Shown: piece by piece, positions 3,416 through 8,222 of the stretch | Position numbering within the stretch: position 1 is the first letter of the stretch | Layout: every line of letters begins with the position of its first letter | Origin: Nitrospira sp. CR1.2 | Lineage (GTDB): Bacteria; Nitrospirota; Nitrospiria; Nitrospirales; Nitrospiraceae | Assembly: GCA_014055495.1 (NCBI GenBank) | Contig: WIAG01000024.1 | Coordinates: 1-51,653, forward strand | Direction: 5' to 3' | Length of the DNA: 51,653 nucleotides | Translations under genes and position numbers: made by a program | The notes under the pieces: generated by a model | The model's input: only the letters and a program-made list of their open reading frames with translations | Databases searched by the model: none | Told to the model about the DNA's origin: nothing

Positions 3416-3420
3416 CCGCC

Positions 3421-3573
3421 ATGGGCTTGGACGAGATTCTCTTTCGCGGCATCAACGGCGTGGCTGGGCAGTCGAGCCTGCTCGATTGGATCGGCGTGGA
3501 ATTGGCCAAGCCGGGTAACCTGCTGGAGCAAAGAAAAGGGGTCGGGAGTCTTTTCTTCACAGCCTCACGCTGA
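3421..3573 (+). pseudogene. 5' stump of a PAP2 phosphatase paralogue, cut by the RAYT element
   Basis: From ATG 3421 the first 35 codons (MGLDEILFRGINGV... to ELAKPGNLL) match the N-terminus of the complete PAP2 gene at 7644; I count 79 of 105 identical bases. At about 3526 the similarity stops and the frame reads into the terminal repeat of the RAYT element, ending at a TGA at 3571-3573. The rest of the paralogue is not found on the other side of the element. This is a truncated copy, not a recent duplication, because the identity is only about 75%. Confidence 0.75.
3531..3557 (+). repeat. Left inverted repeat of the RAYT element
   Basis: The 27-nt sequence is the reverse complement of the right end; 23 bases pair without mismatch before a 3-nt difference in the outer A/T-rich part. 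Confidence 0.8.
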
Positions 3574-3592
3574 ACTCGCTACAAATTTCTCC

Positions 3593-4262
3593 ATGCCACG
3601 CCGCCCACGTCTCGCTGCTGGAGATCTCTCCTACCACGTCCTGAACCGCCACGTCGGTCGACTCCCTTGTTTGAGAGACCCACTGACTACGCCGCCTTTG
3701 AAAAGATTCTGGCCGAAGCCCAGGCCGCCTCTCGCATCCGCATCGCCGCCTATTGCCTGATGCCCAATCACTGGCACCTGCTGCTGTGGCCCGGACATGA
3801 CGGTGAGCTTTCGGAAATTCTCCGCTGGATCACGGTTACCCACACCCAACGATGGCATGCCACGCACCAGACCGCTGGGACCGGCCCGGTCTATCAAGGC
3901 CGCTTCAAGTCGTTTCCCGTCCAATCCGATGAGCATTTCCTCACCGTCGCCCGCTATGTGGAGCGCAATGCTCTCCAGGCTAACCTGGTAGACCGGGCTT
4001 AAGACTGGTAGTGGTCCAGCTTCTGGCGACGATCACAGGGAGAACCCAACCTAACAGCATGGCTCAGTGACTGGCCGGTAGAAAGGCCACGTGATTGGGT
4101 GACGCGGGTGAGTCGCCCCCAGAGCGCATCTGAATTGGAAGCGCTGCGGGTGAGCGTGTAACGTGGGCGGCCGTTCGGCGAAGAAGCTGGGTGCAGCGGA
4201 TGACAAAACGATTTGGAATGGAATCGACCTTACGGCCACGGGGACGGCCAAAAGAGTCCTAA
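3593..4262 (+). pseudogene. REP-associated tyrosine transposase (Y1/IS200-like), inactivated
   Basis: The start MPRRPRLAAGDLSYHVLNR is typical of RAYT proteins. One base is missing near 3665 (RLP then LFERP in another frame). The body holds the catalytic HUH-type motif MPNHWHLLLWP, the ITVTHTQRWHA block and GRFKSFPVQ; a tyrosine-bearing helix (ARYVERNALQANLV) precedes a TAA at 4000-4002. Translation of the DNA beyond still gives RAYT sequence (GEPNLTAWLSDWPVERPRDW) with further stops (TAG about 4009, a TAA about 4160), one more frameshift near 4190 and the natural end at 4260-4262. At least three stops and two frameshifts: an old, dead copy. Confidence 0.85.
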
Positions 4263-4290
4263 GAAAAGACTCCCGACCCCTTTGTTTCTT
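4261..4290 (-). repeat. Right inverted repeat of the RAYT element
   Basis: Matches the reverse complement of the left repeat over 23 bases, immediately after the ancestral stop codon of the transposase gene. Confidence 0.8.
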
Positions 4291-4295
4291 CCCAA

Positions 4296-4400
4296 GCAAA
4301 GGCCTCGGAGTTGTTAACGCCGGAAGTGCAGGCAGCACTTACTGCACTCGATGATTGGTTAAAGTCCAGTGATGAGCAGTACTGCAGAAATGTCGTCTAA
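4296..4400 (+). pseudogene. Tail of a truncated unknown gene, probably from a cassette
   Basis: Directly right of the RAYT element a 34-codon frame reads like a natural protein C-terminus (SELLTPEVQAALTALDDWLK then CRNVV, stop TAA at 4398-4400). The stop lies inside GTCTAAC, the first arm of an attC-like site, exactly as at 7102-7108. I read it as the last part of a cassette gene whose 5' end was lost with the element. The product is not recognised. Confidence 0.4.
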
Positions 4401-4454
4401 CTCCTCCATCGGGTGGAAGTCCGAACGGCTTTGCCTTTCTGCCGCCGCCCATGG
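4395..4454 (+). repeat. attC-like recombination site A (degenerate)
   Basis: GTCTAAC at 4395-4401 fits the attC consensus RYYYAAC. The following arm CCATCGGGTGG (4406-4416) pairs with CCGCCCATGG (4445-4454), one bulge and one G-T pair, like the L''/L' stem of attC sites; the sequence tccatc-N-gggtgg is close to the commonest attC arms. A clean GTTRRRY partner is missing nearby; GTTGAGT (4527-4533) or GTTAGGC (4601-4607) are candidates but make the site too long or unsymmetric. Probably decayed or rearranged. Confidence 0.45.
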
Positions 4455-4642
4455 CCACGATGATTCCTAGCACTGTTTCCTTGGACATAAGATGCCGTGG
4501 GACAGCAGGAGAACCATTGACAAGTTGTTGAGTGTGCGCAAGAATCCCGCACCATCTCGCGCCTTACGGATGGGTCTTGTGCTGGCTAGTATCCTCAATA
4601 GTTAGGCTGCAATCGCGAAATCTTAGTCCGCGGTGAGAGTGG
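4401..4642. other. Short gene-less stretch within the cassette region
   Basis: Contains attC-like site A and ends with the core-site motif GTTAGGC at 4601-4607, 36 nt before the next start codon. No open frame with protein character was seen. It may be the remains of a gene-less or deleted cassette. Confidence 0.4.
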
Positions 4643-5755
4643 ATGCTTCTTGCTAGAATTCAACGCGACCTATTCGACTTTACCGATCGGGATCCGGAAG
4701 ATTTCGGTGGTCTGGTTGAGTTCTGGTATCGGGCAAACAGTGAAGTTCTGTCTGCGGCTCTGTCGGGTCACACTGGGGTCAATCTCATCCTCAACGTAAC
4801 GTCGTTCCGCAACTTCGAAGCACTTGCAAAGAAGATGTTCCTGATTGCTGACACCCTGATCCTTCGCGATACACGAGACTGGGCATCTGACAATGCTAGT
4901 TATCGATCTATTCCAATGCCCGTCGATGAATATCGACCGGGCTATATTCCAGAAGTACTTGACGAATTGCAGAATCTTCGGCCCTCTCCATTGACGCTCC
5001 TTTATCGCCCGGGGCTTGCTTGGACGAGCAAATCAAAGACACTGAACAACGGGCTGAAAGTTGCCTATGCTGGCTGGTCTTATCACAGCATACCGTCTGA
5101 GTTCTTGGAATGGATTGGAGGCCCCGGACGCGAGTACATGAAAACGGGCCAGATCATTTACGCCCCGTTCATCCCACCCCTGAATATGGAGCTCGAGTTT
5201 CTCAAGCATCAGGTCAACCTCCCAGAACAGTTCGGCGCTTATTCCCTGTTTCATGAACGGCACGAATGGCTTACGGACGATCGTCTTCAGGCGTTGCTGT
5301 CTCTGCAGGTCCCATTTTTAGATGGGATTGACATCACAACAATCTCAAAGGTCAAGGAGGACAACTATGACGCCTTTAGCGCGTTTAGCCGGACACTTCT
5401 TGATTCAGTGAACGGCATTAAGTCGTTGGTTGGTACTGAGGGGTTTGCTAGAGAGGTGCGAAGCATTCAACGAAACCAGATCGATGCTGCGCTGAATGAT
5501 GTGAAAAAGACATTTGCGAGAATCGAGAAATCAAGTGTCCTTCGCAAGATGGGCATTCTCACAGGCTTAGTCGGACTGGACGCAGTTGCGTTCATGGGGG
5601 TGCCGGTTACAACAATTACTACTGGGGTGGTAGCGAGCGCAGTAGCCATGATTGCTGACCGCGTCGCACAGCTCAAAGACCAGGGCGAAATCAGTGACAA
5701 GAAGGGATACTTCCTTTGGAAATTGCAGGCTGCTCAAACCAAGGTTCACGCCTGA
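4643..5755 (+). CDS. Unknown cassette-borne protein, 370 aa, with C-terminal hydrophobic segment
   Basis: I do not recognise a family. The first 280 residues look soluble and rich in aromatic residues; residues about 305-340 (GILTGLVGLDAVAFMGVPV and on) are hydrophobic and may form one or two membrane helices, preceded by a charged helix (DVKKTFARIEKSSVLRKM). The gene begins 36 nt after the core-site motif GTTAGGC and its stop is 7 nt before the GCCTAAC of attC-like site B, the layout of a promoterless integron cassette gene. The base composition is clearly lower in GC than the housekeeping genes further right, which supports transfer. A stress or defence role would be speculation. Confidence 0.8.
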   Translation: MLLARIQRDLFDFTDRDPEDFGGLVEFWYRANSEVLSAALSGHTGVNLILNVTSFRNFEALAKKMFLIADTLILRDTRDWASDNASYRSIPMPVDEYRPGYIPEVLDELQNLRPSPLTLLYRPGLAWTSKSKTLNNGLKVAYAGWSYHSIPSEFLEWIGGPGREYMKTGQIIYAPFIPPLNMELEFLKHQVNLPEQFGAYSLFHERHEWLTDDRLQALLSLQVPFLDGIDITTISKVKEDNYDAFSAFSRTLLDSVNGIKSLVGTEGFAREVRSIQRNQIDAALNDVKKTFARIEKSSVLRKMGILTGLVGLDAVAFMGVPVTTITTGVVASAVAMIADRVAQLKDQGEISDKKGYFLWKLQAAQTKVHA

Positions 5756-5762
5756 CATTGCA

Positions 5763-5866
5763 GCCTAACAACGGCATGCATCCGACCTCAAGTTAGTTTG
5801 AACGTCATCGAGAACTTGTGCCGGTTTTGGCGTCGAGTGCGCGGCGGGTGATGCTGGCCGTTGGGT
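5763..5866 (+). repeat. attC-like recombination site B
   Basis: GCCTAAC (5763-5769, RYYYAAC) and GTTGGGT (5860-5866, GTTRRRY) frame 104 bp and pair at all seven positions counting two G-T pairs. Inside, GGCATGCATC on the left pairs with GATGCTGGCC on the right with a bulge, as L'' and L' arms do. Size and symmetry fit attC sites (about 57-141 bp). It separates the 370-aa gene from the 230-aa gene, both in the same direction. Confidence 0.65.
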
Positions 5867-5908
5867 GTCGAAGGAGGCGCCTCTGCATTGCAAGCGAGGT
5901 GAAGCATC

Positions 5909-6601
5909 GTGAAAGATGAGCTGCTTGATAGGCTTCATCGCTGTTACGCGGCCATTGACGCCGCGGTGGAAGGCGACCTGAGCAAGTTCCCACCGAAGAT
6001 CATTGCTGGCGAGAAGCAGTTCGGCCTCTACCAGGATTTTCTTGATGGCCTTACGGAGCCCCAGATCTCTAACTTGGCGCATACGCTGATCCACAACATC
6101 GCGAACCTCCGAGATCATCTTCGCCGATGGGCTGGGAAGAATGGCCTAGATCAAAAAGATATTGAAAGAACAATCGCCGGTTGCGCGGCGCTACAGATGA
6201 TTATTGATCTCTCCAACAACGACAAGCATGGTTATCCGTCGCGGGATGGTGGTCACTCTAAAAGATCGCCCAAGCTGCTGGACGTGAAGCGTGTTCTAAG
6301 GATGTCAGCTGGTCCCGTCGCGGGATTGGGAATAGCAATCGTGTTTATGCCCACTGGGCCGAAGCAGATTGCTTCTGGAGGCGGATTCTCACAGGTTCTT
6401 GTTACCGGTTCAGTCGTTGACGGCAGCGGTGCGCCTCTCGGCGATCTGTACGAGCTTGGAATCGAAGCACTAAAGGCATGGGAGCGACAGTTTGCAGCGT
6501 TCGGCATCGGTTCTGGGCAGTATAACTCGCGGCTTAAGCGGAGCGCCAAACAGTTACGCTGTAGGGTTCCCGTCGCGCTGCGCGCGCCGGCGCTCGCTTA
6601 G
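5909..6601 (+). CDS. Unknown cassette-borne soluble protein, 230 aa
   Basis: Starts with GTG 5909 behind GAGGTGAAG, 43 nt after the presumed recombination point of site B. The N-terminal half is helical (LIHNIANLRDHLRRW, then IIDLSNNDKHGY); the NDKHG block recurs in uncharacterised proteins with HEPN-like helical bundles, but I cannot assign the family. The second half is beta-rich (VAGLGIAIVFMP, FSQVLVTGSVVDGSG). The last 20 residues or so (AKQLRCRVPVALRAPALA) are encoded by attC-like site C, a known side effect of cassette insertion, so the ancestral protein was probably shorter. Confidence 0.75.
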   Translation: MKDELLDRLHRCYAAIDAAVEGDLSKFPPKIIAGEKQFGLYQDFLDGLTEPQISNLAHTLIHNIANLRDHLRRWAGKNGLDQKDIERTIAGCAALQMIIDLSNNDKHGYPSRDGGHSKRSPKLLDVKRVLRMSAGPVAGLGIAIVFMPTGPKQIASGGGFSQVLVTGSVVDGSGAPLGDLYELGIEALKAWERQFAAFGIGSGQYNSRLKRSAKQLRCRVPVALRAPALA

Positions 6602-6616
6602 TCGCAATGTTTGGGT
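6545..6616 (+). repeat. attC-like recombination site C
   Basis: GCCAAAC (6545-6551) pairs with GTTTGGGT (6609-6616). Next to them AGTTACGCTG faces AGTCGCAAT with two bulges. Total length 72 bp. Both outer arms carry one extra base against the consensus (AAAC/GTTT rather than AAC/GTT), a compensated change that keeps pairing. It lies between two same-direction unknown genes, and the next start codon is only 12 nt beyond. Confidence 0.55.
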
Positions 6617-6627
6617 GAGCAGCAAAT

Positions 6628-7107
6628 ATGCCATACCGATCATCTTCCGGTTTGATTGTGATTGTCAGCGCGTTTGCATTCGTTTTGGGTCTGTGGCGTC
6701 TTGCGACGTCGGGGCGCTGGCGCTTGTTTGCGGTGGTGATAGGGGCGTTTTTCGGGTACGCAGCTCTCCTTTGCGCCATTTTCCTAATCCACGATGCCCA
6801 TCTCCGGATATGGACCGCAGTCGTAGTCGTAATTGGCTTTCCCGCGTGGATCATGGCCGGCCCGATTGTGTATGGTATGTCATCGCGCCCACCAGAACAA
6901 TTGTTTGGCGAAACGTCAACCAATCCATCTGCTCGTAGCATTCGGTATCGAGGAGCAATCGCTCTTTTCCTCGGTGTAACTGCGTGGTGCTACGGCGTGT
7001 TCGGCTCAAATTTGTCGCGCAAGCTCGAACTGGTCGTTCTCGGGGTGGCGCTTTATGGATTTGTAATCGGTGGCTATTGGTTACTTAGTGGAAAGAAGTT
7101 GGTCTAA
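6628..7107 (+). CDS. Unknown cassette-borne integral membrane protein, 159 aa
   Basis: Four to five hydrophobic segments can be seen: about residues 8-24 (LIVIVSAFAFVLGLW), 32-53 (LFAVVIGAFFGYAALLCAIFL), 61-82 (WTAVVVVIGFPAWIMAGPIV), 109-125 and 133-153. No family recognised; small polytopic proteins of this kind are common in integron cassettes. Its start is 12 nt after site C and its TAA stop is inside GTCTAAC of site D, leaving no room for its own promoter, so it would depend on transcription from upstream. Confidence 0.75.
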   Translation: MPYRSSSGLIVIVSAFAFVLGLWRLATSGRWRLFAVVIGAFFGYAALLCAIFLIHDAHLRIWTAVVVVIGFPAWIMAGPIVYGMSSRPPEQLFGETSTNPSARSIRYRGAIALFLGVTAWCYGVFGSNLSRKLELVVLGVALYGFVIGGYWLLSGKKLV

Positions 7108-7180
7108 CTACACCATTGAGGTGGACGCGCTCCTTCATTGTGAGCGTTCCGCGACATCCGATGCCGGTAACAAGTTAAAA
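7102..7180 (+). repeat. attC-like recombination site D
   Basis: GTCTAAC (7102-7108) contains the stop codon of the membrane-protein gene. The arm CATTGAGGTGGACGCG (from 7113) can pair with CGCGACATCCGATG (7150-7163) with bulges, and the wording ccattgaggtggacg is close to frequent attC arms. The right core is imperfect: GTTAAAA (7174-7180) fits five of seven pairing positions. 79 bp in total. Confidence 0.55.
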
Positions 7181-7643
7181 TTTTTGTGGTCAGTCCCATT
7201 TTCGAATGCCCGCCAGGTTCATAACACAAACGCATCCGGCCCGATTTGTCAGTACGCCGGAGACGATGCCTTTTATTCGTTCGGTGCGACTCACAGCGGC
7301 AGACTGCCACCGACACTGGCATCCAACCTCTCGATGACGCCAAGCACCAAGCAGAGTTCGAGTATGAGGGAGTTACTAAGGCATGGATTGACGCTGTCTA
7401 GATTGGGCGCTGCAGGGCACCGGTTCTGCGTCATGGCGCCCAACGCGAGGACGGACGACTGAGGGGCAATAGGTTTAGACTGAGTTATGCCCCCATTTTT
7501 CGAGTCATACCTTCGTCGATGCGAGAGTAGCCTTTCTTGCTAATGCACACCCTTCAGTTTGACTGCAATTCCCTGCCCGTTTTCCCACTCAACCTTGCAT
7601 CGAATCATTTGACTGATCCCTCCCGACCCTTTATCGTCGCGGC
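7181..7643. other. Intergenic stretch after the cassette region
   Basis: No convincing gene. A frame ending with TAG at 7399-7401 reads like a protein tail (KHQAEFEYEGVTKAWIDAV) and may be the remnant of a further cassette gene. Right after it TTGGGCGC (7403-7410) and GCGCCCAA (7436-7443) form a perfect 8-bp GC-rich inverted repeat with a 25-nt loop. The open frames crossing this stretch in other phases look random. Confidence 0.4.
7403..7443. repeat. GC-rich inverted repeat TTGGGCGC/GCGCCCAA
   Basis: Perfect 8-bp stem, 25-nt loop. The arms carry GTTRRRY-like and RYYYAAC-like cores in inside-out order, so it could be a broken cassette junction; no T-run follows, so it is not a standard terminator. 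Confidence 0.45.
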
Positions 7644-8222
7644 ATGGGTTTCGACGAAACGCTCTTTCGTGCGATCAACGGTCTGGCCTGGCGGTCGGCG
7701 TTCGTCGATTGGCTGATGGTCGAATTGGCCAAGCCGGGCAACCTGCTGTTTCCCGTGCTCCTGGCTGCAGGCTATTGGGCCTGGGTCAATTGGCGCGAAT
7801 GTGTGATCGGCGGGGCGATGCTGGCGGGAGTGGTCGGCGCGACGGATGCGCTCGGCACCCAGCTCAAGGGCTTGGTGCAACGCCCGCGCCCCTGTGTCAC
7901 GCTTGCGGATGTGCATCAATTGCTGGGTTGCGGCGGGGCCTTTTCCTTTCCCTCCAATCACGCAGCCAATACTGCGGCGGCGGCGGCGTTTTTCCAGGTG
8001 CTCTATCCGAAATCAGGCTGGATCAGCTGGCCCTTGGTGGCCGCAATCGGCATTTCACGCGTGTACATCGGGGCGCACTATCTCACGGACGTGGTCGGAG
8101 GCTGGCTCGTGGGTGGCTTGATTGGGGCGGGGGTGGCCTATTTCCTGAGCCGTTGGTCTCGCTTCCGGCCGGTTACCAAATCGGACTCTTGCTCGCAGGC
8201 TCAGGCCGGCTCGATTTCGTGA
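7644..8222 (+). CDS. PAP2-family phosphatase, membrane-bound
   Basis: This 192-residue integral membrane protein carries the three acid-phosphatase motifs: KGLVQRPRP (about 75-83), FPSNHA (about 103-108, PSNH instead of the usual PSGH) and SRVYIGAHYLTDVVGG (about 138-153) with the nucleophilic-site histidine and partner aspartate. Family members dephosphorylate lipid phosphates such as undecaprenyl pyrophosphate or phosphatidic acid on the outer face of the inner membrane. Five to six membrane helices are apparent. A truncated paralogue stands at 3421. There is no strong ribosome site before the ATG. Convergent with the COG0523 gene, 3 nt apart. Confidence 0.9.
   Translation: MGFDETLFRAINGLAWRSAFVDWLMVELAKPGNLLFPVLLAAGYWAWVNWRECVIGGAMLAGVVGATDALGTQLKGLVQRPRPCVTLADVHQLLGCGGAFSFPSNHAANTAAAAAFFQVLYPKSGWISWPLVAAIGISRVYIGAHYLTDVVGGWLVGGLIGAGVAYFLSRWSRFRPVTKSDSCSQAQAGSIS

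Follow-up and report, generated by a model that had tools for sequence, protein, structure and literature searches.

The window, as the whole 51,653-nucleotide stretch analysed here is called, belongs to a 4.06 Mb draft genome of Nitrospira sp. CR1.2 in 167 contigs, with a completeness of 99.98%. Toward its left end lie the remains of one gene, within which sits a REP-associated tyrosine transposase (RAYT) unit, followed by three genes and by sites with paired boxes of the attC type (Table 1), whose conserved architecture is R″-L″-L′-R′ with extrahelical bases. The segments that these sites delimit, called cassettes 1 to 3, are short, carry one ORF each in the same direction, and leave little intergenic space. 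An earlier, sequence-only reading of this DNA had placed the three same-strand ORFs correctly, and the leaders of 36, 43 and 12 nt that it reported are confirmed when measured from the R′ boxes. Stop codons in the TAAC of an R″ box are confirmed for ORF3 and for the truncated upstream gene. It was also right that the composition differs, since the cassettes have 51–56% G+C versus 58–63% for the enolase, FtsH and PAP2 genes, with the qualification that the right end of the window is equally low (about 50–52%).

Table 1. Features of the array and of the transposase unit at its left side (window positions)
Feature	Positions	Strand	Description
RAYT unit	3524–4283	+	gene 3667–4002; sits within the cassette-0 gene
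Cassette-0 gene, 3′ end	4293–4404	+	36 codons left; stop within GTCTAAC
attC A, degenerate	4399–4607	+	R″ GTCTAAC 4399–4405; R′ GTTAGGC 4601–4607; inner arms not recognisable
Left closing arm, cassette 1	4601–4613	+	GTTAGGCTGCAAT; 13/13 complementary to 5757–5769
Cassette 1	4602–5860	+	cut G^TT; between R′ GTTAGGC and R′ GTTGGGT; 1259 nt
ORF1	4643–5755	+	370 aa
attC B	5763–5866	+	R″ GCCTAAC; R′ GTTGGGT; 38.3 bits, E=1e-6 in the window
Cassette 2	5861–6609	+	flanked by R′ of attC B and R′ of attC C; 749 nt
ORF2	5909–6601	+	230 aa as read
attC C	6520–6615	+	R″ GTATAAC 6520–6526; inner arms CTTAAGCGgAGCGCC/GGCGCTCGCTTAG; R′ GTTTGGG 6609–6615
Cassette 3	6610–7146	+	537 nt; G066 has the ORF3 homolog as a cassette
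ORF3	6628–7107	+	159 aa; stop TAA inside GTCTAAC
attC D, internally deleted	7102–7152	+	R″ GTCTAAC; R′ GTTCCGC; from alignment with the G066 attC

Because an Rfam scan of the window returned no match, a dedicated attC covariance model, R1, was made from 31 sites adjoining the integron integrases of relatives with intact integrons (65 positions, 20 pairs). No window site entered the training set, and the searches were run with filters off. Site B ranks first in the whole genome (E=8e-5), followed by a site on contig C97 (973–1035, 29.5 bits) and one on contig C27 (6400–6464, 23.5 bits), and the best match in the window after site B reaches 10.8 bits. The C97 site (locus L071) stands near the start of its contig, and the short gene after it terminates close to another GCCTAAC; the site is probably another cassette remnant. 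The main comparison genome is that of Ca. N. defluvii (G017, FP929003.1), a single contig from the same genus, in which the ortholog of site B scores 35.5 bits.

In a circular cassette, the end of the R″ side pairs with the start of the R′ side. In cassette 1 the right closing arm, ATTGCAGCCTAAC (5757–5769), pairs with the left one along its whole length, forming a perfect inverted repeat, and the two are the sole GTTRRRY/RYYYAAC pair in the window with at least 9 consecutive matches; 20 mononucleotide-shuffled windows held 0 or 1 pair each with at least 10 matches. This pairing sets the left boundary of cassette 1 at 4601. The sequence-only reading had put that boundary at a site spanning 4395–4454, which must be corrected: the true boundary is the GTTAGGC at 4601–4607, and positions 4399–4405 are the R″ half of an older attC. 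As for the arm-pairing scans, a strict version missed site B, probably because its two spacers are of unequal length, and a relaxed version put it at the top of the window. ORF1 has no Pfam, PADLOC or PHROG family.

Cassette 2 ends in a weaker site. The left inner arm of site C has one extra base without a partner, a feature of the R1 training sites too, and the bottom strand of the site folds with z=-2.36, but the score is 7.4 bits in the window (6520–6616) versus 18.2 bits for the Ca. N. defluvii site (GTATAAC...GTTTGGGC). The two copies differ at few bases, two of which are at the R′ end. The gene has also changed: relative to its Ca. N. defluvii homolog, ORF2 has one base fewer near residue 202, just ahead of GTATAAC, so that the stop in this motif is missed and the frame runs through site C to 6601, while the homolog ends after 205 aa with its stop in the R″ box GTATAAC. 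No protein family was found for ORF2. Its homologs in two other genomes of the family (G085 and G150) are cassettes with fully paired 11-bp closing arms (11/11), and the one in G150 has a 37.8-bit attC and a relic of an integrase gene (intI) upstream.

The product of ORF3 is probably a membrane protein; the family search gave matches to membrane families, all of them weak. Site D, at the end of this cassette, has no R1 match in the window and is recognisable solely by homology to an intact attC of 31.6 bits in G066. By this alignment, part of the hairpin is missing from the window copy, which ends near 7152. In G066 the ORF3 homolog is 76% identical, its closing arms GTTAGGCGAGC/GCTCGCCTAAC pair at 11 of 11 positions, attC matches stand on both sides, and the cassette lies about 1 kb behind a 60-codon relic of an intI 3′ end. 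In the window, the closing arms of cassettes 2 and 3 are no longer complementary. Mean pLDDT values of structure predictions were 31 for ORF1 and 36 for ORF2, too low for the models to be used; plasmid searches with ORF1–3 and viral-contig searches with ORF1 and ORF2 found nothing.

To the left of cassette 1, the cassette-0 remnant corresponds to the C-terminal end of a protein that is intact, at 257 aa, in Ca. N. defluvii (85% over 39 aa); the cassette-0 protein gave a sub-threshold HEPN match. G139 has a homolog of this gene as a cassette whose closing arms span 13 bp and whose attC scores 35 bits; the array in which it lies has four attC matches. Thus, for three of the four array genes (0, 2 and 3), relatives occur as single cassettes with closing arms of 11–13 bp in other Nitrospiraceae, and two of these homologous cassettes stand behind intI 3′-end relics. 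Site A itself was rejected as a full attC: R1 does not match it, it has no stem with at least 9 pairs, and its bottom-strand fold, like that of site D, is no better than that of shuffled sequences, so that each of the two sites taken alone is indistinguishable from chance.

The RAYT unit is bounded by a 23-bp perfect inverted repeat (3535–3557/4261–4283), and the same unit is present in G029 in inverted orientation. Upstream of it, positions 3417–3525 repeat, in truncated form, the first 108 bases of pap2 (7640–7748 in the intact gene, 77% identity), which gives the impression that another pap2 region was joined on here. Further left, at 909–1630, there are internal repeats about 135 bp apart and an apparently fragmented reading frame, where Ca. 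N. defluvii has an open gene of 598 aa. In several Nitrospira genomes, attC-like sites precede pap2 at varying distances of up to about 5 kb (L106:14417-14479, L114:3098-3157, L115:15011-15082 and L123:11333-11392), and weaker ones in L111 and L113, and also at L072:923-987.

How well, then, had the letters alone defined the sites? Of the four intervals given by the sequence-only reading, site B was exact and the others were not: the start proposed for site C (6545) falls inside its left inner arm, the true start being 6520, and the end proposed for site D (7180) is too far to the right. Its view that sites A and D are degenerate holds, as neither is matched by R1, the one being half-recognisable and the other internally deleted. 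It had further named, as a combination that would speak against an integron, the rejection of all sites by covariance models and the conservation of the three genes at one place in related genomes; for the models the outcome is the opposite, with site B strongly accepted here and site C accepted in Ca. N. defluvii. The bottom-strand folds that it proposed bear out site C; they lend nothing to A and D.

Another question concerns the integrase. In the window there is no IntI match, and in the whole genome no match to TIGR02249 exceeds the curated cut-off. The search for intI elsewhere in the genome nonetheless yielded one relic, on C27, of 58 codons from the IntI C-terminus, 71% identical to an IntI of the family and accompanied, on the same strand and about 0.85 kb further downstream, by a weak attC. 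The flank of this relic maps to 3.171–3.174 Mb in Ca. N. defluvii, where the array is about 290 kb away; this genome, which has the same array, has no intI match at E<=1e-30. PF00589 and weak TIGR02249 matches on C36 and C144 were not taken for integron integrases, since they fall short of the IntI cut-off and share 27–32% identity with IntI of the family.

The suggestion that the integron lies outside the usual hosts needs revision, because integrons are native to this family: intI matches above the curated TIGR02249 cut-off occur in 18 of 175 family genomes and attC matches in 20 of the 29 genomes of the genus, and integrase-less arrays have been reported in Ca. N. inopinata. In the arrays examined in the family, attC sites share the strand of intI and are found downstream of it, and intI points toward the array. 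Partial intI matches are mostly 3′-end (C-terminal) fragments, and the three that were inspected are near cassettes (L053:7319-7489, L105:8740-8919 and L076:4855-4989). This C-terminal bias may have arisen through 5′-side losses, or the C-terminus may merely be easier to detect.

The array as a block is present only in the window genome and in Ca. N. defluvii, with 95% identity, the decayed site A included. ORF1 was found in these two genomes alone among 172 family genomes, and ORF3 in three of the 172. In both genomes the block is beside pap2, but at different places relative to the neighbours; conservation of the genes at one position, as the counter-case of the sequence-only reading would have it, is therefore not seen. 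Synonymous divergence between the two genomes is 0.085 for ORF1, 0.057 for ORF2 and 0.104 for ORF3, against 0.74 for the neighbouring pap2. These low values (0.06–0.10 for the block), together with the different positions, mean that the block was probably exchanged horizontally between the two lineages. The decay of site A is common to both, and the comparison indicates that the exchange would have come after it. The dN/dS ratios range from 0.25 to 0.46 (0.25 for ORF1, 0.46 for ORF3), rough values that rest on few changes; they indicate purifying selection on ORF1–3.

Taken together, the feature is very probably an integrase-less integron cassette array (CALIN) in decay, consisting of the truncated cassette 0 and three cassettes of one gene and one attC each. 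The sequence-only reading had called it a CALIN, and this is upheld by the acceptance of site B by the attC model, by the complete pairing of the cassette-1 arms and by the homologs that are cassettes. A Nitrospira integron integrase would have recombined the folded bottom strand of attC sites, and the genes would have been gathered in circular form and lined up in tandem, all in one orientation; the array would later have parted from, or outlasted, its integrase gene. It has subsequently been eroded by the RAYT unit, by an attC deletion and by a frameshift. We infer that an IntI built the array and that the array is now immobile, and likewise the route by which the block moved. Ca. N. defluvii has two attC sites at E<0.05, and the window has a strong site and a weak one. 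Under the IntegronFinder 2 default of at least two attC sites, a CALIN call might fail here, since site B alone passes the model, site C is weak and sites A and D give nothing.

A complete integron has an intact intI and an attI beside the array, and here there is only the C27 relic. Could the array nevertheless belong to an intact integron whose intI is on another or an unassembled contig, the CALIN label being an artefact of assembly? A draft in this many pieces could miss an intact intI, and such genes are known in the same genus; the array, however, is surrounded in the 51.6-kb window by pap2 and other chromosomal genes, the nearly complete genome has no intI above the cut-off, the single-contig Ca. 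N. defluvii has the array and no intI match at the threshold given above, and the C27 flank is far from the array there. We consider this explanation very improbable. Still less credible, to the point of being nearly negligible, is a plain operon encoding hypothetical proteins, with palindromes that arose by chance and no integron at all: the folds of sites A and D alone would suit it, but not the genome's top-ranking attC, the 13-bp closing arms, the single-cassette homologs in G066, G085, G139 and G150, or the sporadic distribution.

A different kind of explanation gives the leading role to the REP-associated transposases, or to another element, which would mainly have moved the block, with the cassettes as passengers. 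The RAYT unit truncates the array here, a second such transposase adjoins the array in Ca. N. defluvii, and the position of the block beside pap2 has changed. Yet the units are on opposite sides in the two genomes, interrupting the array rather than bounding it, and the cassette boundaries track attC and not the RAYT ends; such an element could account for the movement of the block but not for the cassette structure, and we think it improbable as the main agent. Within the CALIN reading, the region upstream of pap2 is possibly a cassette hotspot, where attC-like sites seem commoner than their genome-wide rarity suggests. It is a tentative idea, rather doubtful at present, that integrase-less blocks pass between Nitrospira lineages into this hotspot and so spread where no integrase is resident, whether through homologous recombination, RAYT units or an integrase that acts in trans.

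CALINs are already known in Nitrospira, as the IntegronFinder 2 paper presents two of them in Ca. N. inopinata as its case from this genus (PMC9024848), and the present array extends integrons beyond those two. In the open literature we found no paper on complete Nitrospira integrons, many subscription journals being outside the search. Side by side, the window and Ca. N. defluvii lend themselves to the question of how cassettes persist and move after loss of the integrase.

Like other CALINs, including those of Ca. N. inopinata, the array consists of same-direction, functionally uncharacterised genes separated by attC sites without intI; it differs in being older, with one strong site, truncated by a transposase and horizontally exchanged with Ca. 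N. defluvii. The chromosomal integrons of Treponema, in which intI is transcribed toward attI and of which T. phagedenis keeps a relic (PMC3607928), share with the intact integrons of this family a layout of intI and cassettes on one strand with the array downstream, and the T. phagedenis relic is likewise an integrase-less remnant with attC sites and cassettes. They belong, however, to another phylum, and many Nitrospiraceae here retain an intact intI or its 3′ end only. Also close are the intact Nitrospiraceae integrons found here (for example G037, G055 and G089), which have the same attC structure and, within the same host family, homologous cassette families; they differ in retaining several strong attC sites and an intI that exceeds the TIGR02249 cut-off.
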